Assembly: GCA_903855985.1 (NCBI GenBank)
Contig: CAIOAO010000004.1
Location: forward strand, 1 to 40,502
DNA: 40,502 nucleotides
Source: an uncultured Opitutia bacterium
GTDB lineage: Bacteria > Verrucomicrobiota > Verrucomicrobiia > Opitutales > Opitutaceae
Direction: 5' to 3'
The translations under genes were made by a program, and so were the position numbers. The notes beneath the pieces were generated by a model, which had not been told where the DNA came from, ran no database searches, and saw only the letters and a program-made list of their open reading frames with translations. Below are positions 3,009 to 32,450 of the stretch, piece by piece; the stretch's first letter is position 1, and the number at the start of each line of letters is the position of its first letter.

Positions 3009-3118
3009 GGGGTAGGGTCGATGAACCGCCCGCGATGGGCCGGGCGCAAGATTCTTCCGCATTTGCGGAACCGTCCGGTCGGGTTACTTTCCAAGGACGA
3101 TCGGTTCACTTCCCTCCC

Positions 3119-9227: not shown

Positions 9228-12023
9228 TCAGATGGTGAATGCTTCCTTGAGGAAGCTGCCGAGTTCGTGCTTGTGCAAGGCCAGCGAACCGACGGCGGGG
9301 GACGCGGAGGCGTCGCGGCCGGCATACAGCGGGACAAAGCCGTTGAACGTATGCGTGAGCAGCGGGGCGATGTAGGACCAGGCGCCCATGTTCTGGGATT
9401 CCTCCTGGCACCAGACGATGCGCGCGCCGGAATATTTCTTCGCGATCTCGGCGAGCCGCTTCAGGTGCAGCGGGTAGAGCTGCTCGAGCCGGACGATGGC
9501 GGTGTCGGTGTGGCCGTTTTTTTCCCGGTAGTCCACGAGGTCGTAGTAAACCTTGCCGGAGCAGAACACGACGCGGGCGGGCGCCTTGGCCGCGGTGGTG
9601 AAGGGGGCCTTGGTGCCGCTGCCGGTGGTGGCGAACACGGGGTCGTCAATGATCTCCTTGAACGAGCCGGTGGTGAATTCCTCGAGCCGCGAGGTGGCGG
9701 CGGGCAGGCGCAGGAGGGACTTCGGCGACATCGCGATGAGCGGCTTGAGGAAGTCGCGCCGCATCTGGCGGCGGAGGGCGTGGAAGAAGTTCGCTGGCGT
9801 CGTGATGTTCACGACCTGCATGTTGTCCTCGGCGCAGTTCTGGAGGAAACGCTCGAGGCGGGCGGAGGAGTGCTCGGGGCCCTGCCCCTCGTAGCCGTGC
9901 GGGAGGAGGAGGACGATGCCGCTGGCACGCTGCCACTTGGATTCACCGCTGGCGATGAACTGGTCGATGACGACCTGCGCGCCGTTGGCGAAGTCGCCGA
10001 ACTGGGCCTCCCAGATGCAGAGCATGCTGGGGTAGTCGAGTGAGTAGCCGTAGTCGAAGCCGAGCACGGCGGCCTCGGAGAGCAGGGAGTTGTAGACGCA
10101 GAACCGCGCCTGCTTCTCGTCGAGGTTGAGCAGCGGGGTGTAGGTCTCGAGCGTCTCGGCGTCGTGCAGCACCGCGTGGCGGTGGCTGAACGTGCCGCGC
10201 TGGGTGTCCTGGCCACTGAGGCGGATGGGCGTGCCCTCGAGCAGCAGGCTGCCGAACGCGAGCGCCTCGCCAAAACCCCAGTCGATCGGCCCGCCCTCCT
10301 TGAAGGCCTGGGCGCGCGTCTCGAGGAAGCGCTTGATCTTGGGGTTCAGCTTGAAGTCGGCGGGGACCTTGGTGAGGCCGCGGACAATCTTTTCGAGCTG
10401 GGCGGCATCCACGCCCGTGGCCACGGGCTTGAAGTGGTAGTCGGGCTGAAACACCGCGGTGGAACCCTGGAACTTCTTCGCCTCGAGGATGGCGGCGCGC
10501 TTGGCCGACTTGGCGGTCTCGGAGGCCTTGGCTTTTTCGAGGTTGGTCTCGAGGGCGAGGGTGTACTCGGCCTTGATGGAGTCGGACTCGGCCTCGGTGA
10601 TGGTGCCCTCGGCGACGAGCTTGCGGCTGAGCACGGCGGAAACCTGCGGATGGGCGGCGATCTTGCGGTAGAGGAGGGGCTGGGTGAACGCGGGCTCGTC
10701 GCTCTCGTTGTGCCCGTGCTTCCGGTAGCAATACATGTCGATGACGACATCGCGCTGCCATTCCTCGCGGAAATCGAGGGCGAGCTGCGCGACCATGCAG
10801 ACGGCCTCGGGGTCGTCGCCGTTCACATGGAACACCGGCGCCTCGATCATCTTGGCGACGTCGGTGCAGTAGCGCGTGGAGCGGGCGTCCTCCGGGTCGG
10901 TGGTGAAGCCGATCTGGTTGTTGACGATGAAGTGCAGGGTGCCGCCGGTCTTGTAGCCGGGCAGCTGGGAGAAATTCATGGTTTCCGCGACGACGCCCTG
11001 GCCGGCAAAGGCGGCGTCACCGTGGATGAGCAACGGGAGCACGCGCTTGCGTTCGGTGTCACCGCGGATGCGCTGCCGCGCGCGGGCCTTGCCCTCGACG
11101 ACGGGGTCCACGATCTCGAGGTGGGACGGATTGGCGGCGAGGCGGACCTCGACCTTCTGGCCGGAGGCGGTGTCGAGGATGGCCTCGTAGCCGAGGTGGT
11201 ATTTCACGTCACCGTCGCCGCCGACGGCGTCGGGGATGTAGTTTTCCGAGAACTGCTCGAACAGCAGGTCGAAGTTTTTCCGCATCACGCTCGTGAGGAC
11301 GTTAAGCCGGCCGCGGTGGGCCATGCCGAGGACGACCTCCTCGACGGTGACGGCCGGGCAGTGCTCGATGATCGAGTCGAGCGCGGCGATCATGGTTTCG
11401 CCGCCCTCGAGGGAGAAGCGCTTCTGGCCGACGTATTTCGTGTGGAGGAACTTCTCGAAGAGCTCGGCCTTGTGGACGCGGCGAAGGATGCGGATCTTCT
11501 CGGCGGGGGTGAAATTGGGCTGGTTGCGCGTGGATTCCATGCGCTCCTGGAGCCAGCGGCGCACGTCCACGTCCTGGATGTGGGTGTACTCGACGCCGAT
11601 GTGGTCGCAGTAGGTCGTGCGCAGGGCGATGAGCACGTCGGCCAGTTTCATCTGGCCGCCGCCGAGGAAGGTGCCGACGTCAAAGGCGGTATCGAGGTCC
11701 GCCTCGCCGAGGTCGAACTGCGCCAGCGACAGTTTGGGATGCGGCTCGGGGGGATCGCTGAGCGGGTCGAGGTGCGCCTCCATGTGCCCGATGGCCCGGT
11801 AGGTGTTGATCAGGTAATGGACGTGCGACTGCTTGAGGCTGTCGATGATCGGGGTGTTGACGGCGGCGGAAGCCGCGGGGGTGGCGCCATTGCTGCCGAG
11901 CGTAAAACCCTGAAAGAAAGCGCGCCACGTCGGGTCGACGGAGTCGGGATTCTGTTGCCACGCCTCGTACGCCGCCTCGATGACGGCGGAATTGGCGCTG
12001 GTGGGTACATTCAGGGAATTCAT
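9228..12023 (-). CDS. odhA: 2-oxoglutarate dehydrogenase E1 component
   Basis: This 931-residue protein is full family length. It opens with the E2-binding helix region ([21 protein letters not shown]) and has the thiamine-diphosphate enzyme signatures: [80 protein letters not shown], and the transketolase-like C-terminal half with [10 protein letters not shown] and [20 protein letters not shown]. It decarboxylates 2-oxoglutarate and succinylates the E2 lipoyl group in the TCA cycle. First gene of the odhA-odhB-lpd operon. The start at 12023 ([12 protein letters not shown]) is preferred; an in-frame ATG at 12080 would add 19 residues not typical of the family. The upstream region is shared with a divergent small gene at 12207. 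Confidence 0.97.
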
Positions 12024-12206
12024 TAGGAGGCGGAGGGACTCAGGGTGGACTGCTTGAAGCCGCCGCCACAGGGTACCCATTGGGCAATAATTGTTCGAAC
12101 ATTCAGCACGGGAAGGTCGCTTACACAAGCCCGAGGGCGTTTTGGCTCGGGGATTGCAATCGCGCTTAAGTGGGGTAACGACGGGATTAGTTTCTTCATC
12201 CGCCCC

Positions 12207-12494
12207 ATGCCGCCGCAAATCAAGGAATCACTTATCTCGTTGATGGACGCCATCAAGCGTTCGGATGGGCCGGTCATCGCCGGCGAGATGGCGCGGCTGG
12301 ATGGGTTGCTGGAAACCGGCCGGGCGGCGGGCGTACTGCACCCGCAACTGGAGCATTTCCTGGAGAAGCGCAGCTACGCGAAGGCGCTGCAGTATTTGGG
12401 GGGCGAAACCCTGCAAAACCAGGGATTCCCCGGGCGGCCGGCCAACCCGGCGGTGGGTTGTGACGCGAAGCCGAAGCCGGCGACGAAAGGCTGA
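12207..12494 (+). CDS. Small helical protein of unknown function upstream of SUI1 factor
   Basis: This 95-residue protein is not recognised. The first 65 residues look fully helical and well ordered (PPQIKESLISLMDAIKRS, GEMARLDGLLETGRAAGVLHPQLEHFLEKRSYAKALQYLGGE); the C-terminal 30 are Gly/Pro/Lys rich and probably disordered. Its stop codon is 2 bp before the ATG of the SUI1-like gene, so the two are almost certainly co-transcribed and translationally coupled. It is divergent from odhA across about 180 bp. The frame is open upstream to 12045, but ATG at 12207 begins the regular helical part. A role near translation is only a guess from its neighbour. Confidence 0.65.
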   Translation: MPPQIKESLISLMDAIKRSDGPVIAGEMARLDGLLETGRAAGVLHPQLEHFLEKRSYAKALQYLGGETLQNQGFPGRPANPAVGCDAKPKPATKG

Positions 12495-15597: not shown

Positions 15598-17265
15598 TCA
15601 GTGCTTCGCGAGCGCCCGGTTGAGGGCGCTGACGAGAGCCTTGATCGAGGCGAGCTCGATGTTGGTGTCGATGCCGGCGCCAAAGAGGGAGGTGCCGCGG
15701 TCGGTCGTGATCTGGATGTAGCTGACCGCGCGGGCCTCAGCGCCCTTGCCGAGCGAGTGCTCGGCGTAGCTGAGGACCTCGAACTTGGGCAGGGAGGTGG
15801 TGCCGAGCGCGCGGACGAAGGCGTCGATCGGGCCGTTGCCGGCGGCGGTGAGCTTGTGCGACTCGCCGTGGAGCGTGAGCCGGGCCTCGCATTTGACGGC
15901 GCTGTCGTGCTCGGAGGTCTTGAAGTGCTCGAGCGCGAGGGGCGCGGTGCGCTCGAGGTATTCGCGCTGGAAGGCGGCGTTGATCTCCTCGGCGGTGAGC
16001 TCGCGGCCGGTTGTGTCGGCGAGGTCGTTGATGATCTTGCCGATCTCCTTGTGCATGAGCTTCGGCAGCGTGAAGCCGAAGGTGTTCTCCAGCACGTAGG
16101 CGACGCCGCCCTTGCCGGACTGGCTGTTGATGCGGATGATGGCCTTGTAGCTGCGGCCGACGTCGGCGGGATCGATCGGGATGTAGAGGACGTCCCAGGG
16201 GCGGTCGGGCTTCTGGTGCGGCCAGGACTTCTTGATGGCGTCCTGGTGCGAGCCGCTGAACGCGGTGAAGACGAGTTCGCCTGCGTAGGGCGAGCGCACG
16301 GGCACCTCGAGCTTGGTGCAGCGCTCGTAGACCTCGCGGATGCCGTTGATGTCGGAGAAATCGAGGCCCGGGTGGATGCCGTGGGTGTAGAGGTTCTGGG
16401 AGACGGTCACGAGGTCCACGTTGCCGGTGCGCTCGCCGTTGCCGAAAAGCGTGCCCTCGACGCGGTCGGCGCCGGCGAGCAGGGCGAGCTCGGTGGCGGC
16501 CACGCCGGTGCCGCGGTCGTTGTGCGTGTGCAGTGAAATCAGGGTGCGGTCGCGGCGCGTGAGGTGGGTCGCCATCCACTCGATCTGGTCGGCGTGGACG
16601 TTGGGCATCGCGTATTCCACGGTGGCCGGGAGGTTGAGGATGATCTTGTTCGCGACGGTCGGCGCCCAGACGTCGGTGACGGCCTCGCAAATTTCCAGGG
16701 CGAAATCCAACTCGGTGCTGGTGAAGCTCTCGGGGGAGTATTCCAGGCGCAGCTGGGTGCCTTCCGCTACCAGCGGGGCCATGTGCTTTTTCAGGAAGGC
16801 GACGGCGTGCGTGGCGATGCCCACGACCTCGGCGCGGCTGGCGTTGAACACGTACTCGCGCTGCTTCGGCGAGGTGGAGTTATAAAGGTGGAAGATCGCG
16901 GACTTCGCGCCGCGCAGGGCCTCGAGCGAGCGGGTGATGAGGTCCTCGCGGCACTGGCAAAGGATCTGTATGGTGACGCCGGCCGGGATGCGTTTTTCCT
17001 CAATGAGCCGGCGGCAGAAATCGAATTCGATCTGGGAGGCGGACGGGAACCCGACCTCGATCTCCTTGAAGCCGATCTTCACGAGCAGGTCGAAGTACTC
17101 GAGCTTCTCCTCGACGCTCATGGGCTGGGCGAGGGCCTGGTTGCCATCGCGGAGGTCCACGCTGCACCAGATGGGCGCATGGGAGAGGGTGCGGCCGGGC
17201 CACTGGCGGTGGGGCAGGGCGACGGGCGGAAACGGGCGATATTTCGTGACGGGAGCGGGTTGCAT
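15598..17265 (-). CDS. leuA: 2-isopropylmalate synthase (long LeuA2 type)
   Basis: This 555-residue enzyme condenses acetyl-CoA with 2-oxoisovalerate, the first step of leucine synthesis. It is the longer type: N-terminal extension PAPVTKYRPFPPVALPHRQWP, TIM barrel starting WCSVDLRDGNQALAQPMS, metal ligands in LHTHNDRGTGVAATELALLAGADRVEGTLFGNGERTGN split by the barrel loops, then the C-terminal LeuA allosteric domain (VKCEARLTLHGESHKLTAAGNGPIDAFVRAL ... SYIQITTDRG). Leucine feedback is expected from the regulatory domain. ATG at 17265. A leader hairpin lies upstream; rlmN follows. Confidence 0.96.
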   Translation of the reverse strand: MQPAPVTKYRPFPPVALPHRQWPGRTLSHAPIWCSVDLRDGNQALAQPMSVEEKLEYFDLLVKIGFKEIEVGFPSASQIEFDFCRRLIEEKRIPAGVTIQILCQCREDLITRSLEALRGAKSAIFHLYNSTSPKQREYVFNASRAEVVGIATHAVAFLKKHMAPLVAEGTQLRLEYSPESFTSTELDFALEICEAVTDVWAPTVANKIILNLPATVEYAMPNVHADQIEWMATHLTRRDRTLISLHTHNDRGTGVAATELALLAGADRVEGTLFGNGERTGNVDLVTVSQNLYTHGIHPGLDFSDINGIREVYERCTKLEVPVRSPYAGELVFTAFSGSHQDAIKKSWPHQKPDRPWDVLYIPIDPADVGRSYKAIIRINSQSGKGGVAYVLENTFGFTLPKLMHKEIGKIINDLADTTGRELTAEEINAAFQREYLERTAPLALEHFKTSEHDSAVKCEARLTLHGESHKLTAAGNGPIDAFVRALGTTSLPKFEVLSYAEHSLGKGAEARAVSYIQITTDRGTSLFGAGIDTNIELASIKALVSALNRALAKH

Positions 17266-17340
17266 AACGGCGAAACGGACGGAAAAGGGAAAGGGGACTG
17301 GACGGCACGCCGCGAAAGCGGCGGAAAACCAACGGCGCAA

Positions 17341-17382
17341 ACGCACGATCGACCGCTACGCGGCGATTCAAAGATCGTGCGT
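17341..17382 (-). promoter_or_regulatory. Leader hairpin upstream of leuA
   Basis: ACGCACGATC and GATCGTGCGT make a perfect 10-bp stem around a 22-nt loop that itself can pair (CCGC/GCGG). It lies about 75 nt upstream of the leuA start. No T-box TGGNACC signature and no downstream U-run are seen, so an attenuator cannot be claimed; an operator or structured 5' leader is possible. The rest of the 17266-17562 gap shows only the ECF-type promoter. Confidence 0.4.
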
Positions 17383-17500
17383 GGAAGTAAGTCGAAGCGC
17401 CTGGGACCGGTTTCGCATGAAGCGGGGGCCAGTAAGGAAGGGGCCCGGCGGGGTGTCAAGTAGCCGGCTGGCCCGCCGCCGGGGCAAAAGTGGGCAGGGG

Positions 17501-17527
17501 TGTAACCCGGGGGTGGCCGGCCCCGTC
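17501..17527 (+). promoter_or_regulatory. Candidate ECF-type autoregulatory promoter
   Basis: TGTAACCC (AAC at 17504-17506) followed after 17 nt by CGTC (17524-17527) matches the AAC-N16/17-CGT layout common to ECF sigma promoters. It lies 35 bp upstream of the ECF gene start, the expected place for autoregulation. The intervening sequence is GC-rich, as is usual for such promoters in high-GC genomes. Confidence 0.5.
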
Positions 17528-17562
17528 TTGCCTGTTGTGCATGAGTTTGACCACATCCTCCT

Positions 17563-18153
17563 ATGTCTGAAGACGAGTCGTTCGATCTGGCCGGGTGCCT
17601 TGAGCTCGTTCGCCACCGCGATCAGGCCGCGGCGCGGTCCCTCGTCGAGCATCTCCACCCACTCGTCATCCGCATTGTCCGCGCGCACCTGCCCCGCCGG
17701 GTCAGCGAGGAAGACCTGGCCCAGGATATCTTTCTGAAAATGTTCACCCGGCTCGAACAATACAAAGGCGCGGTTCCGTTTCCGCACTGGGTCTCCCGGA
17801 TCGCCGTGACGACCTGCATTGACCAGCTGCGCGCGCAGAAGCGCCGGCCGGAGTTCCGCTGGGCCGACCTGTCGGAGAACGAGGCCGACGTGCTCGACGC
17901 CGTGATGACCAACGAGAACGACATCGCGGCGGGCGACGCCCTCGCGGCCCGCGAGCTCGTCCACAAGCTCCTCGACCAGCTCAAGCCCGACGACCGCCTC
18001 GTCATTCAGCTCCTCGACCTCGAGCAGAAGACCATCGCCGAGATCAGCGCGACCACCGGCTGGAGCCAGTCGCTGGTGAAGGTCCGGGCCTTTCGCGCGA
18101 GACGGAAGTTGCAGAAACTCTTTCAGGAACTAGAACAACAGGACCGCCCATGA
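17563..18153 (+). CDS. ECF-type RNA polymerase sigma factor
   Basis: This 196-residue protein has sigma region 2 (HPLVIRIVRAHLPRRVSEEDLAQDIFLKMFTRLEQY, then FPHWVSRIAVTTCIDQLRAQKRRPE) and region 4 (LDQLKPDDRLVIQLLDLEQKTIAEISATTGWSQSLVKVRAFRARRKLQKLF split by the HTH). It directs transcription of an envelope or stress regulon. Its stop overlaps the start of the next gene in an ATGA, so sigma and partner are translationally coupled, the usual arrangement for an ECF factor with its anti-sigma. ATG at 17563 is the first in frame and gives a normal N-terminus. Confidence 0.9.
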   Translation: MSEDESFDLAGCLELVRHRDQAAARSLVEHLHPLVIRIVRAHLPRRVSEEDLAQDIFLKMFTRLEQYKGAVPFPHWVSRIAVTTCIDQLRAQKRRPEFRWADLSENEADVLDAVMTNENDIAAGDALAARELVHKLLDQLKPDDRLVIQLLDLEQKTIAEISATTGWSQSLVKVRAFRARRKLQKLFQELEQQDRP

Positions 18154-18446
18154 ACCCCTCTGATCAGAAATGGTCGCGTCTGACCGCGGCCGCCCGCGCA
18201 GCCCGGGACCCCCGCGACACCGCGGCGCCCTACGGCTTCGCGACGCGCGTGGCCGCGCTGGCCATGGCGCAGGAGCGCCGGGCCGTTTCCCTGCTCGAGC
18301 GGTTCTCCCTGCGCGCGCTGGGCCTCGCCGGCCTGCTCGCGCTGGTCTGCGTCGCCGCGAATATTTCCACCGTAACGAGCCTGTTCCGCGACGAGGCCGC
18401 CAACGCGGATGATCCCGTGGCGGAAATCGTCGATCTCGCCTCCTGA
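18150..18446 (+). CDS. Small single-TM protein, candidate anti-sigma factor
   Basis: This 98-residue protein overlaps the ECF gene by 4 bp (ATGA). The N-terminal ~50 residues are cytosolic (QKWSRLTAAARAARDPRDT, APYGFATRVAALAMAQ), one transmembrane helix follows (about residues 53-75, LRALGLAGLLALVCVAANIS), and a short acidic tail is periplasmic. No zinc-binding HxxxCxxC of classical anti-sigma domains is present. Position, coupling and topology make it the probable membrane tether and inhibitor of the sigma factor; sequence alone does not prove this. Confidence 0.75.
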   Translation: MNPSDQKWSRLTAAARAARDPRDTAAPYGFATRVAALAMAQERRAVSLLERFSLRALGLAGLLALVCVAANISTVTSLFRDEAANADDPVAEIVDLAS

Positions 18447-18448
18447 CC

Positions 18449-18871
18449 ATGGACAAGCCCTGGAAAGTCATCCTCGCCTTCACCGGCATTTTTGTCGCCG
18501 GCCTCCTGGTGGGCGGGCTCGTGACCCTGCGCTGGGGCAAGAATTTCACGCAGCGGCAGCCGATGGGCGAGCAGTTCGGCCCGCAACTGATGCAGCGGCT
18601 GGTCACCCAGCTCGACCTCACGCCGGCACAGCAGGAAAAGGTGAAACCCATCATCGACTCGGCGGCCGAGGAGCTGAAGCAATTGCGCCGGACCACGCAG
18701 CGGGCCTCCGCGGCGGTGCTGGTGCGCATGCAGGGTGACATCGGCGCGGTGCTGACGCCCGAGCAAAGGGCCAAGTTTGACACCCAGGTCGGCCAGACCC
18801 GCGAGCGCATCCGCCACTTCATGGAAGAGCGCGCGCGCCGGCAGAAGGAACGCCAAGCTCCGCCGCCGTAA
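18449..18871 (+). CDS. Spy/CpxP/CnrX-like periplasmic sensor anchored by one TM helix
   Basis: This 140-residue protein has an N-terminal TM anchor (WKVILAFTGIFVAGLLVGGLVTL, about residues 5-27) and a helical periplasmic domain with the twin LTPAQQEKVKPII and LTPEQRAKFD motifs typical of Spy, ZraP, CpxP and CnrX proteins. These are envelope chaperones or metal/stress sensors. It starts 2 bp after the preceding stop, so the three genes form one operon: sigma, putative anti-sigma, periplasmic sensor, reminiscent of the CnrYXH logic. The stress sensed is unknown; no metal-binding His/Cys cluster is obvious. The 150 bp to the SRP RNA contain only short palindromes. Confidence 0.8.
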   Translation: MDKPWKVILAFTGIFVAGLLVGGLVTLRWGKNFTQRQPMGEQFGPQLMQRLVTQLDLTPAQQEKVKPIIDSAAEELKQLRRTTQRASAAVLVRMQGDIGAVLTPEQRAKFDTQVGQTRERIRHFMEERARRQKERQAPPP

Positions 18872-19023
18872 GGATTGGGTTCGGTCGGGCGGGAAAGCTT
18901 TCCCTAGGGGTGAGCTGGTCGGCGCTTTCCCTAAGCGTCTGCCATCAGGCGGCCTACCGCACCGGTACGGATGACTCCCAAATTGATGTTGCGCGAGGTC
19001 GGAAGCGGGGCATGGTCCGCCTC

Positions 19024-19119
19024 GGCCAGGTGCCATGCATGGGCAGGCGCGTGAACTCCGCCAGGGCCGGAAGGCAGCAACGGCAACGACGTCCTACCAG
19101 TGCCGTGGAGTGCCTGGCC
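19024..19119 (+). ncRNA. ffs: Signal recognition particle RNA, small bacterial (4.5S) type
   Basis: The conserved domain IV is seen as GCCAGGGCCGGAAGGCAGCA: a GGAA tetraloop closed by GCC/GGC, with the symmetric and asymmetric internal loops (AG, AGCAA) that bind Ffh. Flanking strands pair: GGCCAGG (19024-19030) with CCTGGCC (19113-19119), and AGG/CCT inside. Total length about 96 nt fits the 4.5S class. It lies just upstream of dnaX, a common gene order. The RNA works with Ffh and FtsY in co-translational targeting to the membrane. End points are from the terminal stem and could be off by a few bases. Confidence 0.9.
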
Positions 19120-19130
19120 ACCTTCACTTT

Positions 19131-19161
19131 ATTTTCGAATCGCGATTGGCGATTTTCGAAT
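19131..19161. repeat. Copy of the ATTTTCGAAT repeat between SRP RNA and dnaX
   Basis: Two direct copies of ATTTTCGAAT (19131-19140 and 19152-19161) with CGCGATTGGCG between. The same 10-mer, in both orientations, makes the arms of the 15508-15586 element. Further degraded GGATTTCGGATTTGG-like units continue to about 19250. Confidence 0.6.
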
Positions 19162-19254
19162 ACCGGCCACCCCCGGCGCCTTTGGGCGCGGGGATGAACC
19201 CCGCGGCCGACGTTTTTATTTGCGCTTTGGGATTTCGGATTTGGTCTTGGCGCA

Positions 19255-20436
19255 GTGTCCAACGGTTACCAAGTCATCGCGCGCAAGTGGCGTTCGCAGA
19301 CCTTCGACGATGTCGTGGGTCAGGACCATGTGGTGCGGACGCTGAAGAACGCGATCACCCGCAACCGGATTGCCCACGCCTACCTGTTCGTTGGCCCGCG
19401 CGGCACCGGCAAGACCTCACTCGCCCGGCTGTTCGCCAAGGCGCTCAATTGCACCGGCGGCCCGAAGGCCGATTTTGATGTCAACGACCCGGCTTGCATC
19501 GCCATCGCCGAGGGCTCGCACCTGGACGTGATCGAGATCGATGGTGCGTCGAACAACGGCGTGGACCAGGTCCGCGACCTCCGCGACACCGTGCGTTACG
19601 CGCCGGCGCAGGGGAAGTTCAAGGTCTACATCATTGATGAGGTGCACATGCTGTCCGTGCAGGCGTTCAACGCGCTGCTGAAGACGCTCGAGGAGCCGCC
19701 GGAGCACGTGAAATTCGTCTTTGCCACGACCGAGCCGCAGAAGGTGCTGCCGACGATCGTGTCGCGCTGCCAGCGCTTTGACCTGCGCCCGATCCCGCCC
19801 GCGCTTATCGTTGAGCGGCTGGCGAAAATCGCCAAGGCGGAGAAGATCAAGATCACGCCCGAGGCCCTGGCTTGCATCGCCCGGCTCGCCGACGGCGGCA
19901 TGCGCGATGCGCAGTCCATCCTCGACCAGATGATTTCATTCTGCGGCGGGGAAATCTCGGAGCCGGACGTCCTGGATGTGTACGGACTCGTGTCCGCCGA
20001 GAAAATCACCGCGCTGGCCGCGGCGCTGGCCGCCGGCGACCACAAGAAGATCGTGGCGATCGTGGATGAGTGCGACGCCGACGGCCGGGACCTCGTGCGG
20101 CTGCTGACCGATCTGCAGGTGCTGGTGCGCGCGGCGCTGCTCGATGCGATCGCGCAAGGCGGCAAGAGCAGCATTCTCGGCCATTCGACCGGCTCAGGCC
20201 AAGGCGGCGAGTCGATGACAACGGAGCAGATTACCCGGATGCTCGACGGCCTGCGCGAGGGCGAGGGTGCGGTGAAGCTCGGCCTGGCGGAAAAGATCAA
20301 TTTTGAGGTAACGCTGCTGAAAGCCGTCGAGGCCAGCCGCGCCCGGGCGATTGACAGCCTGATCAAGGAACTCGCGTCCCTCGCCGACGAATCCCCGGCC
20401 GCCGCGGGCGCCGACAGCGAAAAAAAAAAGGACTGA
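19255..20436 (+). CDS. dnaX: DNA polymerase III gamma/tau subunit, zero-frame (short) product
   Basis: This 393-residue zero-frame product is the clamp-loader ATPase. Walker A GPRGTGKT is at 47-54, Walker B IIDEVHML, sensor 1 [20 protein letters not shown], sensor 2 [12 protein letters not shown], and domain III follows. The zinc module is reduced: only C66 and C81 remain, where E. coli has four cysteines. The zero frame ends KKKD-stop right after an A10G run (20420-20430), exactly where E. coli gamma ends; the -1 frame stays open to 20828 and would give a 524-residue tau-like form. Start is a GTG at 19255. The SRP RNA lies upstream. A homopolymer sequencing error is the main alternative to a programmed shift. 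Confidence 0.93.
20420..20430 (+). promoter_or_regulatory. A10G slippery site for -1 frameshift or transcriptional slippage in dnaX
   Basis: Ten A residues followed by G are read GAA AAA AAA AAG in frame and contain the canonical A-AAA-AAG heptamer of E. coli dnaX. The zero-frame stop TGA is at 20434-20436. A possible stimulatory stem AGCGC (20450-20454) / GCGCT (20466-20470) lies downstream. No clear internal Shine-Dalgarno is seen upstream, so transcriptional slippage as in Thermus dnaX is equally possible. Confidence 0.7.
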
Positions 20437-20828
20437 TTGACCGGCTGGAAGCGCGGCTCAGCGCGGCGCTGCAAGCGGGCGACCCGACTTTGCCTGGTGC
20501 CGGCGCGGAAAATGTGGCGGGCAAACCGGCTGAGGCTGAAGCGCCGGACGAAGGGCTGATGGAAATGGCGGGAGAAACGGGGGCCAGCAACTGGCCCGAC
20601 GAGTCCGCCGAATCCGCGTTCCGCGCCGAGACCCGCGAACGCGGCGAACCGGAGCTGCCCGCGGGCCTGTTGGTCGAGGCCGCCGAGGAAACGGACACCA
20701 AAGGCCTGCCTGCATTGGAGGACTTGGTAAAACGAATCTCCCCCGAGACGCGTGAGCTGATGGATGAACTTTTCCGGGCGAAGTTTACCGGCGTGAGACG
20801 AGTGCCGGCGAAGGCGCTCAAGGGCTGA
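20430..20828 (+). CDS. dnaX: tau-specific C-terminal extension of dnaX (-1 frame)
   Basis: The -1 frame entered at the A10G run stays open for 132 codons, starting [19 protein letters not shown], running through an acidic Ala/Glu-rich linker ([20 protein letters not shown]) and ending in a compact motif with [17 protein letters not shown] and [13 protein letters not shown]. Full tau would be 524 residues, a usual DnaX length. In E. coli the tau-only domains bind DnaB helicase and the polymerase alpha subunit; the end motif could do likewise. The last 18 codons are duplicated at 23006-23059. Without a shift this segment has only a TTG start at 20490, so independent expression is unlikely. Confidence 0.7.
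20763..20816 (+). repeat. Direct repeat, copy 1 (dnaX 3' end)
   Basis: 54 bp, identical at 53 positions to 23006-23059. The single difference (T20771 versus C23014) is synonymous in the shared frame encoding [18 protein letters not shown]. It lies at the 3' end of the dnaX tau frame. The repeat could be an attachment-site core or a duplicated gene end. Confidence 0.85.
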
Positions 20829-20897
20829 GTGCTTTTACCCAGGCAGGGGAGGTGAGAACCGTGCAGTTCCCGGGGCGACTGCCGGTTCAGGCTGTAA

Positions 20898-22352
20898 CTA
20901 CAAATGTTGGAGCCGGATTTCGATCGTTGTGCCGTACAGGGCTGCGGGCGCGTCCTTCTCGCTCACCGAGCTCAATTGCAGGGTGCCGCCCATGGCCAAG
21001 ACCGTGTCGTGCATCAGCTGCAGGCCAAATCCCGTGCCCGGCTCCTTCTGGGTGCCGGGGCGGCTGACCATCGTCTTCGACTGTTGGAACTGCCGCAGCA
21101 GCTTGGCTGGAATCCCGACGCCGCGATCCTGGATGCGCAGCACGGCCCAGCCGGATTCCAGGGTGACGGAGATCTCGATCCGGCCCCCCTCGTGGCTGAA
21201 CTTGATCGCGTTCGACAACGCATTGCCGATGACCGTGCTGCGCAGCATGCCCGGCTCGGCCAGGACCATGACCTCGGCGGCATCGATCTGGCGCTCGAGC
21301 GAGAGATTTTTGTTCTGCAGCTGCTCCGAAAACAACGCAACGGAGCCATGCACCATCTTCACGAGGTCGGTCGGGACAAGCGGGAGTTTTTTGTCCCCGG
21401 CCACCCGCCGGATCTCGGTATTCCGCACATTGCCGATGATCTCCTCGATGGCCGTGGCCGCCGAGGCGATCCGGAGAAATGACTTGTCGGGGTCCAGGGC
21501 GCGCTGACTGCTCCGGGCGCGCTGGTATAGCTGCACGTGGCCGACAATCACGTTCAGCGGATTGAGGATGTCGTGGCAGAGGACCCGCAGGAAGCGCCCC
21601 TGGACCTCCAGTTCCTGCTCCCGCAGCTTGGCCTGGTGGCGGTGTGCCTCCGCACGCTTGAACCGGTAGGAGAGCCCGAAGGCGCTGGCGAGCAACTCCC
21701 ACAAAAATGCGGCCACGAGCAGCGATAAAATCGCGCCCCAATGTGGCATAAGCCCGAGGTTGATAATACTGCTCACCATTGCCGCCAGCATCAGGGGAAC
21801 GGTGCTGACGAACCAGATTCGTGCTGCGTGCAGCCTGAGCCGTAATGCGGTAATACTGACGGCGATGGCACTCAGCGAGACAACCAGCTGGGCAGTGGCG
21901 ACCAAGCGAAAGAAAATCTCAGGAGTTGCGAAGGGAGCCGCTAGGAGGGCGACGAGGATGAGCAGACCAAGCCACTTCAGGGCGCGGTGGGCCGACGGCA
22001 TGTTCGCTTTCAAATCGTAACTCTCACTGCACCACCAGACGGCGAGCAGCGCGTTAAGCGCCATCACGAACGGCAGGGCATGCCCCAAGTGGTATCCTCC
22101 TGGTACGCCCAGAGTGAGATGGCTCAAAAAGCCCGTCCGGATGAATGTGGCAGTAAGGCCTCCCATCGCAAACAGGACATAGACGAGTGTGGCTCGATCG
22201 CGGGTTTGGAACCAAATCGGAATCTGCAAAGCAGCCATAATGATCACGGCTCCGAAATAGAAGGAGAAGACGCCGACACGCTGATTAGCCCCTAGCGCAA
22301 GTTTAGGCCCGGAAATTATGACCGGGAACAGGCCGTAGGGATGGGCCGGCAC
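20898..22352 (-). CDS. 7TM sensor histidine kinase, kinase half of a 7TMR-DISM protein split by TAA
   Basis: 484 residues from a GTG at 22352. Seven TM segments occupy about residues 25-235 (VGVFSFYFGAVIIMAALQI to ILSLLVAAFLWELLASAFG), then a short coiled coil, the H box FLRVLCHDILNPLNVIVGH with phosphoacceptor His, N box NALSNAIKFSHEGG, G1 DRGVGIP and G2 GTGFGLQL. All kinase motifs are intact. The frame is the same as that of the sensor domain upstream at 22362-22820; only the TAA at 22364-22362 and three codons separate them, so this was one ~640-residue gene. No response regulator is adjacent. The segment is lower in GC than its neighbours and lies between the 54-bp repeats. Confidence 0.85.
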   Translation of the reverse strand: MPAHPYGLFPVIISGPKLALGANQRVGVFSFYFGAVIIMAALQIPIWFQTRDRATLVYVLFAMGGLTATFIRTGFLSHLTLGVPGGYHLGHALPFVMALNALLAVWWCSESYDLKANMPSAHRALKWLGLLILVALLAAPFATPEIFFRLVATAQLVVSLSAIAVSITALRLRLHAARIWFVSTVPLMLAAMVSSIINLGLMPHWGAILSLLVAAFLWELLASAFGLSYRFKRAEAHRHQAKLREQELEVQGRFLRVLCHDILNPLNVIVGHVQLYQRARSSQRALDPDKSFLRIASAATAIEEIIGNVRNTEIRRVAGDKKLPLVPTDLVKMVHGSVALFSEQLQNKNLSLERQIDAAEVMVLAEPGMLRSTVIGNALSNAIKFSHEGGRIEISVTLESGWAVLRIQDRGVGIPAKLLRQFQQSKTMVSRPGTQKEPGTGFGLQLMHDTVLAMGGTLQLSSVSEKDAPAALYGTTIEIRLQHL

Positions 22353-22361
22353 ACTCCGGAT

Positions 22362-22820
22362 TTAGGCCACGCTCCGTCCGCCAGTCAGCTGCTCAAGAGG
22401 AAGCTCCAGATCTATCGGGCTGTCCTTGTCACGGTGCCTCACCCGGGCGAATCCAGCCTCGGCGGTCGCGATCGGTCGGCCGTCAACCAGCAGATAGGCT
22501 TGGATCTGACCAAGGGCGGAGGCACGGATCCGGAGCCAAAGGGGGTCCCCTCCGTCTGTGCCGGGGCCGGCCAATACCAGCTTGTACCAGATCGGCTCGC
22601 CCAGCGGGGCTTTGGCCTCATCCATGGTGCTCACGCGCTGGAGCGCGAACGTCGCCAGTTCGGGGAGCCCCGCGGAACCATGTAATTCAAAATTCTTGGG
22701 GGCTTGGACGACGTAGGTCTCCTCAATCGTCGCAGCTGAAGCGGCGATGGCACCGGAAAAAATCACGCTAGCGAACAAAGAGCGGGAGAACTTGAGCGCC
22801 AAATCGAAGGGCCGTTGCAT
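22362..22820 (-). CDS. Periplasmic DISM sensor domain, N-terminal part of the split histidine kinase
   Basis: About 152 residues from ATG at 22820 (earlier in-frame ATGs at 22850 and 22886). The signal peptide is MQRPFDLALKFSRSLFASV continuing to AASA. The domain ETYVVQAPKNFELHG ... IWYKLVLAGPG ... LWLRIRASALGQIQAYLLVDGR ... IDLELPLEQLTGGRS has the jelly-roll pattern of the 7TMR-DISM extracellular 2 module, which senses small ligands, perhaps carbohydrates. It stops at TAA (22364-22362); after it the same frame reads IRSVPAHPYGLFPVI into the 7TM half. If translated alone it would be a secreted fragment without a kinase. Nonsense mutation or sequencing error are both possible. Confidence 0.75.
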   Translation of the reverse strand: MQRPFDLALKFSRSLFASVIFSGAIAASAATIEETYVVQAPKNFELHGSAGLPELATFALQRVSTMDEAKAPLGEPIWYKLVLAGPGTDGGDPLWLRIRASALGQIQAYLLVDGRPIATAEAGFARVRHRDKDSPIDLELPLEQLTGGRSVA

Positions 22821-23005
22821 GTACTTACTACTGAAAGGTATCTTAAGCATGGGCCACGTCTTTTGCGTGCAATGATTGCACCGCATTTCTGCCAGATTAG
22901 CCCAGATATAGTTCCAATTATTCTTCCTAACGAGTCCTAGTCGTCCGGTTTCATTAGGGAAACGAATTGGATAAAGCGCATCCCCCCGAAGCCCACGAAG
23001 TGCTT

Positions 23006-23059
23006 GATGAACTCTTCCGGGCGAAGTTTACCGGCGTGAGACGAGTGCCGGCGAAGGCG
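23006..23059 (+). repeat. Direct repeat, copy 2 (displaced dnaX 3'-end fragment)
   Basis: 53/54 identical to 20763-20816. Upstream of the repeat the translated sequence still resembles the dnaX end (PPEAHEVLDELF versus [12 protein letters not shown]) though the DNA has diverged. Downstream similarity stops within a few bases. There is no open gene here worth calling. The 22887-23005 stretch is AT-rich and otherwise empty. Confidence 0.85.
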
Positions 23060-23116
23060 TTGAGAGCTCAGGTCGGAAGAACGCAAAGCGCCGTTTTAAT
23101 TCCGATCTGCGCATTT

Positions 23117-23476
23117 CTACTCCCGCCAAGTCGACCCGAGATCTCGCCGGCCATGGATGCTGCGGGCGCAGAGATAGGTTTCAATGGACTGCCCGGCAAA
23201 GGGCGGGAGAAGTTTGATCGACTCGCGGCGGTACAGGCCTTCGGCAAGGCCCTCGAGGAGGTCGAGTTGGGTGAGGCCGGCGGCGTCCACGGACCAGACT
23301 TCACCGGTGACGCCGTCGCGGTCGTCGGGTTTGACGATCATGCCGGGGTAACCGTCGAGTTCATAGAGACGGTAGCCGGGCGGGGTGCGGGCTTCGCCGA
23401 GGAACTGCTGGCCGGCCATGAAGTGGAAATTGCAGCCGCCGCGTTTCAGCGTGCCGTAGACAAAGATCAGGCTCAT
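23117..23476 (-). CDS. Gamma-glutamylcyclotransferase-like (AIG2/GGACT) protein
   Basis: This 119-residue protein has the family's YGTLKRG start (MSLIFVYGTLKRGGCNFHF), the ARTPPGYRLYELDGYPGMI strand, VTGEVWSVDAAGLTQLDLLEG with the catalytic-position glutamate of the GEV/W and LE region, and Y.R.S.....  near the end. Family members cyclise gamma-glutamylamines or similar isopeptide-linked amino acids. Its ATG overlaps the stop of the PP2C gene (ATGA), so it is the last gene of a kinase-PP2C-GGCT operon. The in-frame extension upstream to 23620 lies inside PP2C and is not real. Confidence 0.87.
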   Translation of the reverse strand: MSLIFVYGTLKRGGCNFHFMAGQQFLGEARTPPGYRLYELDGYPGMIVKPDDRDGVTGEVWSVDAAGLTQLDLLEGLAEGLYRRESIKLLPPFAGQSIETYLCARSIHGRRDLGSTWRE

Positions 23477-24324
23477 GACGCCGGAAGCTCGATCACGAGG
23501 GCGGTGGTGTTGTCCCGGCCGGAATTTTGCACGGCTTCGTTCACGAGCCGCTGCGCGGGGGTCGAACCGGACTCCTCGGGCGACGGGGTGCGGATCAGCG
23601 ACTCGAGCCGGTGGTCCCACAGGCCGTCAACGAGGCCGTCGGAGCAGATCAGGAAGCGGTCGCCGGGCTGGTGGCCCACGGCGCCGATGTGGGGCTCGAG
23701 GAACTGGTTGCTGGCGCCGAGGGCCTGGTTGAGCGCATTGCGCAGCGGATGTTCGCGGGCCTGGCGTTCGTTGAGCTGACCCTGGCGGCGCAGCCAGCCG
23801 ACGTGGCTGTGGTCCTGGGTGACTTGGGTGAGTCCGCCCGCACGTGGCAAAAAGTAGATGCGGCTGTCGCCGACGTGGGCGAAATACATCCATTCGGGCG
23901 TGAACCAGCCCAGGCTGAGCGTCGCCCCCATGCCGGCGCATTCCTCGTAGGAGGATCCGAGATTGCGCAGGTCAGTGTGGATGGAGGTGAACAGCTCGAA
24001 GAGCACATCGGTGAACCCGCTGCTCATCCCGGCGGCCGACAGGCGGAAGGCGCGGGGAAGCAGCTTGGTGATGCGGTCCACGGCGATGCGGCTGGCGAAT
24101 TCGCCGGACTTGGCGCCGCCCATGCCGTCGCTGACGGCGAAGACGAAGTCCGTGCCGGCGAGCGAGGCCGAGCCGGTTTTGCCGAGGTAGCGGACCTCGT
24201 GGCCGTCGAAGCTCAGCCCGAGGAAGGCGTCCTCGTTGTTCGGGCGGAAGCGTCCGCGGTCGGTGATCCCCGACCAGCGGAGGCTGGACGACTGCGGGGC
24301 GGCGGACGGATTGGGTGCGTCCAT
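23473..24324 (-). CDS. PP2C-family (PPM) serine/threonine phosphatase
   Basis: This 283-residue phosphatase has the PPM motifs: SGITDRGRFRPNNEDAFL (D22 and E31-D32), VFAVSDGMGGAKSGEFAS (D66 and metal-binding GMGG), GATLSLGW...YFAHVGDSRIYFL, HPLRNALNQALGAS, DRFLICSDGLVDGL and GRDNTTALVIEL. It removes phosphate from Ser/Thr or from another small substrate in the cytosol; no TM or extra domain is present. It starts 2 bp after the kinase-like gene and overlaps the next gene by 4 bp, so kinase and phosphatase are made together, as in Ser/Thr kinase/PP2C pairs. Confidence 0.92.
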   Translation of the reverse strand: MDAPNPSAAPQSSSLRWSGITDRGRFRPNNEDAFLGLSFDGHEVRYLGKTGSASLAGTDFVFAVSDGMGGAKSGEFASRIAVDRITKLLPRAFRLSAAGMSSGFTDVLFELFTSIHTDLRNLGSSYEECAGMGATLSLGWFTPEWMYFAHVGDSRIYFLPRAGGLTQVTQDHSHVGWLRRQGQLNERQAREHPLRNALNQALGASNQFLEPHIGAVGHQPGDRFLICSDGLVDGLWDHRLESLIRTPSPEESGSTPAQRLVNEAVQNSGRDNTTALVIELPAS

Positions 24325-24326
24325 GG

Positions 24327-24737
24327 TCAGCCCGTGGGTTTCAGGGACACGGTGCCGGGTCCGCCGTCGAGCAGGGTGGCGAACTCAAAATCGATGATGC
24401 AGAAGCGCCCGTCGGCGACCCGGTACGTGATGTTGCGGAGTTCGCGGTCCTCGTGGCGCACGCCGAATGGCTCGAGTTCGGCGAACACCTCGGCCGTGCG
24501 CTCGACGCTCAAATGGTCCACCCGCGTGCCGCAATTGGTGGTGACGATCTTCAATTGCGCGGGATCCACCTCCAGCAGCCGCGGCACAAACGTGCAGCCC
24601 TTTGCCTCCAAATGCTGGAGCACCCGCACCTCATGCGCGAAGCGCTCCTGGGCCTGGTGGCCGCGGAAGGTCTTGTGCACCCGGCCGTCGTAGCCGATGC
24701 GCACCAGCGCCCGGGCGGTGTCCTTCATCTCATGCAT
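24327..24737 (-). CDS. Miniature protein-kinase-like protein
   Basis: Only 136 residues but with the order of kinase-fold motifs: a strand and VHKTFRG (K22), the alpha-C glutamate in RFAHEVRVLQHLEAKG (E36), the hinge region LKIVTTNCGTRVDHL, catalytic loop VRHEDRELRNITY (D97, N102) and metal-binding IIDFEFAT (D116, DFE in place of DFG). No glycine-rich loop is evident and the C-lobe beyond DFE is almost absent. It resembles LPS/RIO-type small kinases or phosphotransferases. First gene of the operon with PP2C. Its target may be a protein or a small molecule; catalytic competence is uncertain. Starts at 24737 or 24728. Confidence 0.7.
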   Translation of the reverse strand: MHEMKDTARALVRIGYDGRVHKTFRGHQAQERFAHEVRVLQHLEAKGCTFVPRLLEVDPAQLKIVTTNCGTRVDHLSVERTAEVFAELEPFGVRHEDRELRNITYRVADGRFCIIDFEFATLLDGGPGTVSLKPTG

Positions 24738-24861
24738 GATTAATTAGACGGAGTTTCGGGCGTGTTTTGGCGCTGGCAAGCCTGATGACTGAATGACGAA
24801 AGATGCTGGCAATGAATTTGATGGATTAATCTGTCGCGCGCGGGTCAGTTCGGGCTGGCTC

Positions 24862-24877
24862 TGGCATATAAGGTGCT
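24862..24877 (+). promoter_or_regulatory. Candidate sigma-54 promoter of glnA
   Basis: TGGCATATAAGGTGCT has the invariant GG and GC exactly 10 bp apart and matches TGGCAC-N5-TTGCW with two mismatches. Transcription would start near 24888, leaving an 87-nt leader before the glnA ATG. Sigma-54 control of nitrogen assimilation genes is classical. No clear NtrC enhancer was found in the rest of the 24738-24974 gap, which otherwise shows nothing. Confidence 0.5.
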
Positions 24878-24974
24878 AATTTTACCCTGAGTTTTTGGTG
24901 CTCCCACAGACTCTAGCATACTCGATCAACCTCACCACGAACTCACCCTAAACCTGTCCCTAACCCAACCGACC

Positions 24975-26006
24975 ATGGCCAAATACAAATTGGAATACAT
25001 CTGGCTCGACGGCTACACGCCGCTGGCCAGCCTGCGCAGCAAAACCCAGATCAAAGAATTTGCCAGCTTCCCGAAGCTCGCCGAACTGCCCGCCTGGGGC
25101 TTTGACGGCAGCTCGACGCAGCAGGCCGAGGGCAAGAGCTCGGACGTTGTCCTGAAGCCCGTGGCGGTTTTCCCCGACACGACCCGCAAGAACGGCGTGC
25201 TCGTGATGTGCGAAACCTACCTGCACACGGGTGCCGCGCATCCCTCCAATTCCCGCGCCACGATCCCGGATGATCCGGACACCTGGTTCGGTTTTGAGCA
25301 GGAATATTTCCTGTGGAAAGACGGCGCGCCCCTCGGTTTCCCCAAGGACGGTTTCCCCGCCCCGCAGGGCCCGTACTACACCGGCGTCGGCTACAAGAAC
25401 GTCGGTTGCGTCGCCCGGGAGATTGTCGAGAAGCACATCGACATCTGCCTCGATGCCGGGATCAACCTCGAGGGCATCAACGCCGAGGTCGCCAAGGGCC
25501 AGTGGGAGTTCCAGATCTTCGGCAAGGGCTCCAAGAGCGCCGCTGACCAGATGTGGGTCGCCCGCTACATCCTCGCCCGCCTGACGGAGAGCTACGGCAT
25601 CGACATCGAGTGGCGCTGCAAGCCGATCCTCGCTCCGTTCCAGCAGCCGCTGGACTGGAACGGCTCCGGCATGCACTCCAACTTCTCGACCAAGTACATG
25701 CGCGAAACCGGTGGCAAAGCCTACTTCGAGAAGCTCATGGCGGCCTTCAACCAGTACGTCGGCGAGCATATCGCGGTGTATGGCCCGGAGAATCACCTCC
25801 GCCTCACCGGCCTGCACGAGACGCAGTCGATCGACAAGTTCAGCTACGGTGTCGCCGATCGCGGCGCCTCGATCCGCGTGCCGCACAGCTTCGTCAACGC
25901 CGGCTACAAGGGCTACCTCGAGGATCGCCGTCCGAACTCCGCCGCCGACCCGTACCTGGTCGCCGGCCGGATCCTCAAGACGATCCAGACCGTGCCGACC
26001 ACGTAA
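24975..26006 (+). CDS. Glutamine synthetase, short eukaryote-like (GSII) type
   Basis: This 343-residue enzyme makes glutamine from glutamate, ammonia and ATP. It is the short decameric GSII type: beta-grasp domain with WGFDGSSTQQAEGKSSDVVLK split over a loop, then the catalytic metal motif GFEQEYFLW, VGCVAREIVEKHIDICLDAG, GQWEFQIFGKG, NGSGMHSNFSTKYMR and the arginine loop DRGASIRVP. The adenylylation loop tyrosine of GSI is absent, so regulation is likely transcriptional, agreeing with the sigma-54-like promoter upstream. A strong terminator follows. ATG at 24975 begins MAKYKLEYIWLDGYTP, the family start. Confidence 0.95.
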   Translation: MAKYKLEYIWLDGYTPLASLRSKTQIKEFASFPKLAELPAWGFDGSSTQQAEGKSSDVVLKPVAVFPDTTRKNGVLVMCETYLHTGAAHPSNSRATIPDDPDTWFGFEQEYFLWKDGAPLGFPKDGFPAPQGPYYTGVGYKNVGCVAREIVEKHIDICLDAGINLEGINAEVAKGQWEFQIFGKGSKSAADQMWVARYILARLTESYGIDIEWRCKPILAPFQQPLDWNGSGMHSNFSTKYMRETGGKAYFEKLMAAFNQYVGEHIAVYGPENHLRLTGLHETQSIDKFSYGVADRGASIRVPHSFVNAGYKGYLEDRRPNSAADPYLVAGRILKTIQTVPTT

Positions 26007-30555: not shown

Positions 30556-32334
30556 TTACTTGAGGATCATGTCCTTCACCGTCTTGCCGGCGGGGATCAT
30601 CGGCAGCACGTGCTCGGTGTAGGGCACGATGACGTCGAGGACGTACGGGCCGTCGTGGTCGAGCATCTCCTGGATGGCGGCCTTGAGTTCGCTCTTCTTG
30701 TGGACGCGGCGGCCCTTCACGCCGAAGCCCTCGGCGATCTTGACGAAATCAGGATAGAGGCCGCCGAGGTTCTCGGGGCTGCCGACGTTGGACTCGTCGC
30801 CGAGGATGGTGTTGCCGCGGACGCTGCCGTAGAAACGGTCCTCCCACTGCACGACCATGCCAAGGTGCTGGTTGTTCAGGATCATGGCCTTCGCGGCGAT
30901 CTTCTCGATGTGCGCGGTGGCGAGCTCCTGGATGTTCATCATGAACGAGCCGTCACCGTCGATATCGATGACCTGCTTGTCGGGGCAGGCGACCTTCGCG
31001 CCGAGCGCGGCGGGATAGCCGAAGCCCATCGCGCCGAGGCCGAGCGAGCTGATGTAGCGGCGGGGCTCGTTGAAGCGGTAGAACTGCGCGGCCCACATCT
31101 GGTGCTGGCCCACGCCGGTGGCGATGATGGCGTCACCCTTCGTGAGTTCATAGAGTGTGGCGACGGCCTCCTGCGGGACGATGTGCTTGCTCTCGTCGTA
31201 CTTGAACGGCTGCTCCTTCTTCCACTTCGCAATCTGGGCGTGCCAGGCGGTGGTGTCGGGGGCCTTGAACTTGTTCGCGGTGGCGAGCTCGTTGAGGCGG
31301 GAGAGCGCGGGCTTGATGTCGCTGACGATCGGCAGGAGGACGCGCTTGTTCTTGTTGTGCTCGGAGGCGTCGATGTCGATGTGGACGATTTTCGCGTGCG
31401 CCGCGAATTTGTTCGTGTCGCCGGTGATGCGGTCGTCGAAGCGCGCGCCGACGCAGAGGAGCAGGTCGCACTGGTCCACGGCCCAGTTGCCGTAGGCGGC
31501 GCCGTGCATGCCGAACCATTGCATCGAGAGCGGGTGGGACTCGGGGAAGCCACCCAGACCCATCAGCGTGGTGGCGACGGGCACGTTGGTCTTCTCGGCG
31601 AAGGCCTTGAGGTCGGCATGTGCGTCGGAGGAGATGATGCCGCCGCCGGCGTAAAGCACGGGCTTCTTGGCGTCGGCGATGAGCGCGAGGACTTCCTTCA
31701 GCTGCTCGTCGGTGGCGGTCTGCGTCGCGGTGGCGTAAGGGTTGCGGAACTCGACCGTGGCCGGGAACACCGGCTGGAATTTCGCCTGCTGCACGTCCTT
31801 CGGCAGGTCGATGATGACCGGGCCGGGGCGGCCGCTGCGGGCGAGGTAAAAGGCCTCCTTGAACACACGCGGCAGCTCGTGGACATCCATCACGAGGTAG
31901 GAGTGCTTCACGATCGGCAGCGTCATGCCGTAGAAATCCGTCTCCTGGAACGCCATCTTGCCGATGTACTTCGAGTACACCTGGCCGGTGATGGCGACGA
32001 GCGGGATGGAGTCCATGTACGCGTCGGCGATGGCCGACACGAGGTTGGTGGCGCCGGGGCCGCTGGTGGCCATGCAGACGCCGACCTTGCCGGTGGCGCG
32101 GGCGTAACCTTCCGCGGCGAACGAGCCGCCCTGTTCGTGGCGGGGGAGGATGGTGCGGATCTTGTCGGTGCGCGCGAGCGACTGGTGGAGCTCCTGCGAC
32201 GCGCCGCCCGGGTAGGCAAAGATGACATCAACACCCTCGCGGATGAGGCACTCGACGACGGCGTCGGAACCCTTCATTTCGCGGCCGATCTCGGCCTTGG
32301 GAAACGCGGCGGGGGAGGTGTGGTCTTTTTTCAT
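30556..32334 (-). CDS. ilvB: Acetolactate synthase large subunit
   Basis: This 592-residue ThDP enzyme condenses pyruvate with pyruvate or 2-oxobutyrate in branched-chain amino acid synthesis. Signatures: [17 protein letters not shown], the catalytic Glu in [19 protein letters not shown] (HEQ), [23 protein letters not shown]-site [10 protein letters not shown], and the ThDP motif [18 protein letters not shown] with [13 protein letters not shown]. No small subunit ilvN lies next to it. The start ATG at 32334 is preferred; [11 protein letters not shown] 19 codons later is also possible. Palindromic repeats fill the upstream region, and a terminator closes the gene as a single transcript. Confidence 0.95.
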
Positions 32335-32450
32335 GGCGGAAAGCGGGAAAAGCGGCCGCGAGATAACACAAATTTGGGCCGAGGTTGCAAGCTGGCATCT
32401 GGGCGTGGGCGGGGGTCTCCCGACCCGGGCAAACCGTGGCAAAACCCTCC

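Follow-up and report, generated by a model that had tools for sequence, protein, structure and literature searches.

Gene Organization at the dnaX Locus

The DNA analyzed here is a stretch of 40,502 nucleotides, referred to below as the window. Its dnaX gene (19255–20828, plus strand) was delineated from open reading frames and from the Pfam domains DNA_pol3_delta2, DNAX_ATPase_lid, and DNA_pol3_gamma3. A short form corresponds to the frame 19255–20436, and a longer form ends at 20828 through a −1 frame change. A run of ten adenines (20420–20429) is followed directly by the zero-frame stop (GGACTGA), the long form being read in the −1 frame. This run is kept in all 13 genomes aligned and is likely a site of programmed frameshifting or of transcriptional slippage. 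Upstream of dnaX, positions 19024–19122 encode a bacterial small SRP RNA (Rfam RF00169, 61.1 bits).

The distal linker of dnaX (20441–20762, plus strand) displays an excess of synonymous divergence from two genomes of the same genus, G003 and G005, which ends where a repeat block begins. Downstream of the gene end lies an insert (20829–22960, no strand assigned), composed of some 70 bp of spacer, a 7TMR-DISM histidine kinase gene (20898–22820, minus strand, convergent with dnaX), and an AT-rich stretch of some 130 bp (45.6% GC) separating the kinase gene from the second copy of the repeat. The next gene, GGCT (gamma-glutamylcyclotransferase-like, 23117–23479, minus strand, Pfam GGACT), is by synteny the ancestral downstream neighbor of dnaX. 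It is followed by a PP2C-type phosphatase gene (23473–24324, minus strand, Pfam PP2C_2), used as a flank in the divergence comparisons, then by a small gene that weakly matches phosphotransferases, and by glnA.

A Direct Repeat of the dnaX End

When positions 17000–26000 of the window were searched for repeats, the first-ranked direct-repeat family was a pair of 77-nt segments (20740–20816 and 22983–23059), 87% identical, in the same orientation, and spaced by 2243. In its core (20763–20816 and 23006–23059), 53 of 54 bases match, and the sole mismatch is synonymous (CTT/CTC, Leu). The earlier note on this DNA had described the core in the same terms, and it had also recognized that the protein-level resemblance to dnaX continues upstream of the second copy, as the alignment now confirms. 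When the dnaX end was aligned locally to the DNA that follows the gene, the score was 104, compared with a maximum of 27 in 60 shuffles.

Copy 1 (20763–20816, plus strand) is the live 3′ end of dnaX, as indicated by the repeat search, the alignment, and the divergence data. Copy 2 (22964–23068, plus strand, the upstream limit being approximate) lies on the GGCT side and includes the second 54-bp block at 23006–23059. It has no in-frame stop at the position where dnaX should terminate. Its resemblance to dnaX reaches about 40 bp upstream of the block, within coding sequence, and soon ceases beyond; the similarity ends about 100 bp before the position of the dnaX stop, in the window as in G005. 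The two window copies differ at 1 of 54 positions in the block, versus 19 of 42 directly upstream. No duplication of the dnaX side is visible past the stop codon in the window alignment.

The genome searched for further copies comprises 2.94 Mb in 110 contigs, of which the window is C4. The 77-mer yielded 10 DNA matches at E ≤ 10, among which only these two copies are both long and strong. The next best match, on C32 (79% over 47 positions, E 0.00125), overlaps an unrelated 578-aa open reading frame, and the remaining seven span 14–28 bases each. No third copy of the 54-bp repeat was found across the 2.94 Mb, and the 19-residue tail peptide matches the two copies only. The many unrelated genomic copies that the earlier note had envisaged as a possible objection are thus not seen in this genome. 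The repeat shows no unusual fold (z −0.59 and −0.10), no terminator-like site was detected in 20400–23500, and a conserved RNA in the 54-mer finds no support.

The Junction Between dnaX and GGCT in Related Genomes

In 6 of the 11 other genomes of the genus (G001, G003, G004, G006, G008, and G010), dnaX and GGCT are convergent, at most 120 bp apart, and without the insert. The empty site that the earlier note had proposed to look for in relatives does therefore exist. The distance between the dnaX stop and GGCT is 50 bp in G003. It is about 300–350 bp in G002 and G007, and GGCT was not found within 8.4 kb downstream of dnaX in G009. The two genes are separated by a kinase gene in G005 and by a GH15 gene in G011.

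This GH15/glucodextranase-like gene of G011 (L045, 6070–8493) encodes a product ending in PAKALKN, to be compared with the dnaX end PAKALKA, and the six homologues inspected end differently. The PAKALK match lies 79 bp from the GGCT end and is not significant over the whole gap (p 0.19, 200 shuffles).

The survey was extended to 76 loci of the family, which do not form a random sample, since they were taken from listed matches with enough surrounding contig. A convergent GGCT is present in 54 of them, at a distance of at most 120 bp in 40, of 225–348 bp in 6, and of 0.8–3.3 kb in 8. It was not found in the stretch taken for another 21 loci, some of which are cut by contig ends and three of which have PP2C nearby, and it lies elsewhere in the last one. 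Four loci of genus g37 (L078, L079, L095, and L100) have 1.56–1.77 kb between dnaX and GGCT.

The conserved tail of dnaX is matched at E ≤ 0.001 in 227 of 252 family genomes. Two tail matches per genome were reported in five of the 252 (the genome of the window, G005, G043, G123, and G246). Among the positions listed, the two matches share a contig in the window and in G005 only, and lie on different contigs in G246 and G043. Enlarged gaps were also inspected for fossil dnaX ends: of 17 cases (the window and 16 loci), only the window and G005 gave a clear one. Two further loci, L054 (p 0.045) and L103 (0 of 200 shuffles), stood out in this test, with low DNA scores and in a series of 17 tests. 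In L103, the peptide RRLPRSALFRQG (about 1397–1433), within an 848-bp gap between dnaX and GGCT, resembles the local dnaX end RRMPRDALKVQG.

The breadth of this conservation is what could recommend the view that the repeat is a dispersed C-terminal tail, as the earlier note had suggested in the alternative, or a functional DNA or RNA motif kept in two places. Such a view is hardly credible, given that there are only two copies in the genome, with no unusual fold and no terminator-like site, that pairs on one contig are confined to the window and G005 among the positions listed, and that copy 2 is without its stop in the window and decayed in G005.

A Second Carrier of the Insert

The G005 contig is identical to QQNC01000125.1 (MAG Opi-474) and carries the same insert as the window, together with a fossil dnaX end. 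The junctions of the two species can be aligned, with 74 of 100 identical bases in each of two stretches on the left side, and only 61 of 98 and 63 of 95 on the right. Between the fossil end and GGCT, G005 has about 290 bp of extra DNA (L043, about 2890–3210) that is absent in the window.

Within G005, the two copies are separated by 18 differences in 57 sites. The ends of G003 and the window are closer to copy 2 of G005, with 14–15 differences in 57, than is the live end of G005 itself. Over the 42 bases just upstream, the nearest to this copy 2 is G003, with 8 differences, versus 11 for the G005 live end. Because of this nearness pattern, of the position on the GGCT side, and of the lost stop, copy 2 is best read as the displaced former end of dnaX, now non-coding.

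Being a 40.5-kb contig from a draft assembly in 110 contigs, the window could in principle reflect an assembly artefact or a mixture of strains. This is very improbable: a separate assembly, that of G005, has the same arrangement with a different sequence, the copies are not identical, and upstream of copy 2 the sequence is no longer dnaX after a short distance.

The Kinase Gene

The kinase product comprises, in this order and above the Pfam cut-offs, the domains 7TMR-DISM_7TM (PF07695), HisKA (PF00512), and HATPase_c (PF02518). Its homologue in G005 is a single open frame of 658 aa, whereas the window gene is interrupted by an in-frame TAA at 22362–22364; the second stop in the window match, a TAG at 20898–20900, is the window gene's own end and occurs earlier than in G005. 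Unless the TAA is a sequencing error, the gene may be decaying. No response regulator was seen beside it. The earlier note had reported a lone sensor kinase in a segment of low GC. The kinase is indeed there, but interrupted, and the GC content is only mildly low: it amounts to 60.8% for 20900–22899, where 2-kb stretches average 64.7% (SD 2.5), and the minimum over 2 kb (57.3%) belongs to a stretch of the window that starts at 24801, outside the kinase segment.

Of the 252 family genomes, 8 have kinase matches at E ≤ 1e-60. Those of the window and G005 are the only close ones, the others standing at 32–36%. In G178, G191, G246, and G247, which are the genomes with a distant kinase whose dnaX tail position was listed, the match lies on a different contig from the tail. 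Viral contigs offered 47 candidate stretches, and by the method used no kinase relative is encoded in any of them. Partial matches are found in 899 plasmid records, all below 60% identity and none covering 80% of the query, the five listed showing 26–31% identity.

In both the window and G005, the kinase fills the insert, and no recombinase was seen among the open reading frames beside it, to which the check was limited. The earlier note had likewise seen no integrase. These observations bear on the possibility that the insert is what is left of an integrative element that targeted an attachment site in the dnaX 3′ end by site-specific recombination. Such an element would have supplied a version of the gene end of its own, and its integrase and other cargo would have disappeared before the window and G005 diverged. 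Much of the layout would suit such an origin, namely insertion at the 3′ end, the end restored and the old one displaced, a direct repeat of 54–77 bp, and empty sites in relatives. We nevertheless consider it unlikely, in view of the lack of a recombinase among the open reading frames beside the kinase, of a fossil that extends some 40 bp upstream of the block inside coding sequence, of G005 copies too different for the repeat to have been kept as an attachment core, and of the viral and plasmid searches.

Age of the Insertion and Its Probable Loss in G003

Between the window and G005, the dS of the kinase is 0.30 for its main part and 0.25 for the DISM half, with dN values of 0.14 and 0.11, respectively. 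The corresponding flank dS values are 0.31 for dnaX, 0.34 for GGCT, 0.31 for PP2C, 0.24 for the gene at 24330–24737, and 0.15 for glnA. The kinase thus falls in the range of four of the five flanking genes (0.24–0.34), glnA being the outlier. As its divergence is in step with that of its flanks and as G005 shares the insert, the insertion looks old; it appears to predate the split between the window and G005 and to have been inherited since. The earlier note had counted the same two copies and kinase, vertically inherited in a relative, as evidence against its reading of the locus, and this is what G005 shows. That the window lineage alone acquired the kinase recently is ruled out by the insert in G005 and by the dS values.

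The relationships within the trio were approached through site patterns polarized with G008 as the outgroup. For the pairings window + G003, G003 + G005, and window + G005, the counts are 18, 28, and 10 at 9260–12210 (which we take to be sucA), 11, 8, and 3 at 30560–32350 (presumably ilvB), and 41, 26, and 20 from GGCT to glnA. Window + G005 is the least supported pairing at all three loci. A concatenated tree groups G003 with G005 (support 89/94), whereas the GGCT–glnA and ilvB patterns favor window + G003, and a nine-genome flank tree leaves the trio open. Because window + G005 is the least supported pairing, the empty junction of G003 is interpreted as a loss, and G003 probably once had the insert. 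Recombination between the two direct copies would most simply offer the path for it.

An exchange of alleles between lineages could mean that the insert was never present in G003. The kinase would then have been inserted twice independently or passed on laterally, for instance by transfer of a G005-type locus into the window lineage. The absence of support for the window and G005 as sisters is in favor of such transfers, and so is the introduced look of the window linker 20441–20762. We hold this scenario to be quite unlikely, because the kinase dS agrees with four of the five flanks, as inheritance predicts, and because the junctions can be aligned in both species. It can be combined with the other explanations, so that the likelihoods given in this article do not sum to one.

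Apparent Mosaicism of the dnaX Ends and Probable Homogenization

Divergence along the distal part of dnaX is far from uniform. From 20457 up to the repeat block, dS is 0.96 for window–G003, 0.89 for window–G005, and 0.25 for G003–G005. From DELF on, the corresponding values, based on only 21 codons, are 0.13, 0.63, and 0.97. From the same point, 9.0 of 16.5 synonymous sites distinguish the live end of G005 from G003, versus 16.0 of 75.7 just upstream. Differences private to the window amount to 50 of 319 sites in 20441–20762, versus 8 of 328 in 20056–20440, 0 of 65 in 20763–20830, and 67 of 2870 in the GGCT–glnA flank. These sharp shifts in dS at the block edge suggest mosaicism. By the dS values, the foreign-looking DNA occupies different stretches in the two species: the linker in the window and the last codons in G005 look introduced, and the last codons of the window look G003-like.

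The window linker 20441–20762 is probably a recombinant tract. No donor was found among the 252 family genomes, of which ten, its own included, match it at E ≤ 1e-8; only G003 (79%) and G005 (78%) do so over the whole length, the other matches being partial (68–80%). A local acceleration, instead of a foreign source, is possible.

Copy 2 of the window is identical to G003 over the 54-bp block and differs from it at 16 of 42 bases just upstream (ungapped), while the G005 fossil differs from G003 at 15 of 57. Since the insertion looks old and the G005 copies are so different, the near-identity of the window copies is not the scar of a fresh integration. The proposal of integration at the gene's 3′ end made in the earlier note is supported in part: the empty junctions and the affinities of G005 copy 2 uphold copy 1 as the live end and copy 2 as the old one, displaced, but the 54-bp identity is not supported as the trace of the insertion. 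Later or continued homogenization by recombination fits best, because copy 2 equals G003 in the block, diverges upstream, and has a G005 counterpart well removed from G003. The identity of the block far exceeds that of the flank and of the sister copies, as expected of short-tract gene conversion between direct repeats. A later exchange of the end block between copy 2 and copy 1 would account for both the G003-like end and the 53 matches in 54. The live end of the window being G003-like and the 322 bp upstream foreign-looking, a single donor event would not suffice for both species without such a later exchange.

These data also bear on a somewhat unlikely alternative, in which the kinase was inserted illegitimately and some 100 bp of target DNA were duplicated in the process, through a staggered break or template switching. 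Both ends would then be native, with no foreign dnaX DNA involved. It draws on the near-identity of the window copies and the G003 end over 54 bp, and on the lack of a visible dnaX-side duplication past the stop codon. It leaves unexplained, however, the divergence of the G005 live end from G003 and the window tract 20441–20762, which could be separate events.

A Proposed History of the Locus

The comparison establishes an empty junction in relatives, an insert and a fossil end shared with G005, and a kinase divergence that matches most flanks. The history that we propose starts with the entry of a kinase gene into the convergent dnaX/GGCT junction, in an ancestor of the window species and G005, and probably also of G003. 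The incoming DNA would have comprised the 3′ end of a related dnaX and, behind it, the kinase. Its left side would have recombined homologously within dnaX, and its right side would have been joined illegitimately, some 100 bp ahead of the dnaX stop. In this way, dnaX would have gained a working new end, and the old one would have persisted, non-coding, next to GGCT. A short tract would later have been exchanged between the two ends in the window lineage, leaving 54 bp nearly identical, and in G003 the kinase would have been lost, most simply by recombination between the direct copies. As for the mechanism of entry, our confidence is about evenly divided, and the same holds for this sequence of events taken as a whole.

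A more general idea is that the dnaX 3′ end could be a recurrent entry point in the family that works without a recombinase, varied cargo entering with foreign dnaX ends and leaving by recombination between the ends. The GH15 gene of G011 with its PAKALKN terminus and the gaps of 0.8–3.3 kb at 8 of 76 loci are cues in this direction, but the idea is a speculative one, which we judge improbable.

As a genome rearrangement, the insertion is of an ordinary kind, but comparing relatives that carry it with relatives that lack it documents it well. The value of the locus is that the state before insertion, the inserted state in two species, a fossil gene end, and a probable loss are all visible, with no recombinase seen. 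It also calls for caution, since a direct repeat that is nearly identical and lies at the 3′ end of a gene is not necessarily the scar of a fresh integration. In the present case, the insertion apparently predates the split from another species, and the repeat identity would be secondary.

Comparison with Known Systems

The kinase shares with 7TMR-DISM sensor histidine kinases the same three domains in the same order. It departs from them in that its extracytoplasmic half has no Pfam match and its gene is interrupted.

Genomic islands and other integrative elements inserted at the 3′ ends of protein genes form a known class. As in the window, the target gene is restored, its old end displaced, direct repeats are present, and empty sites occur. 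Unlike these elements, the window insert has a single cargo gene and no recombinase seen, its repeats have diverged in G005, and the fossil is longer than the identical block. The closest parallel to the proposed entry is homology-facilitated illegitimate recombination, in which one junction is homologous (here, putatively, dnaX) and the other is formed without evident homology, a gene being added beside a homologous gene end. The event in the window differs from it in being apparently old, natural, and deduced from comparisons, with a putative homologous junction.
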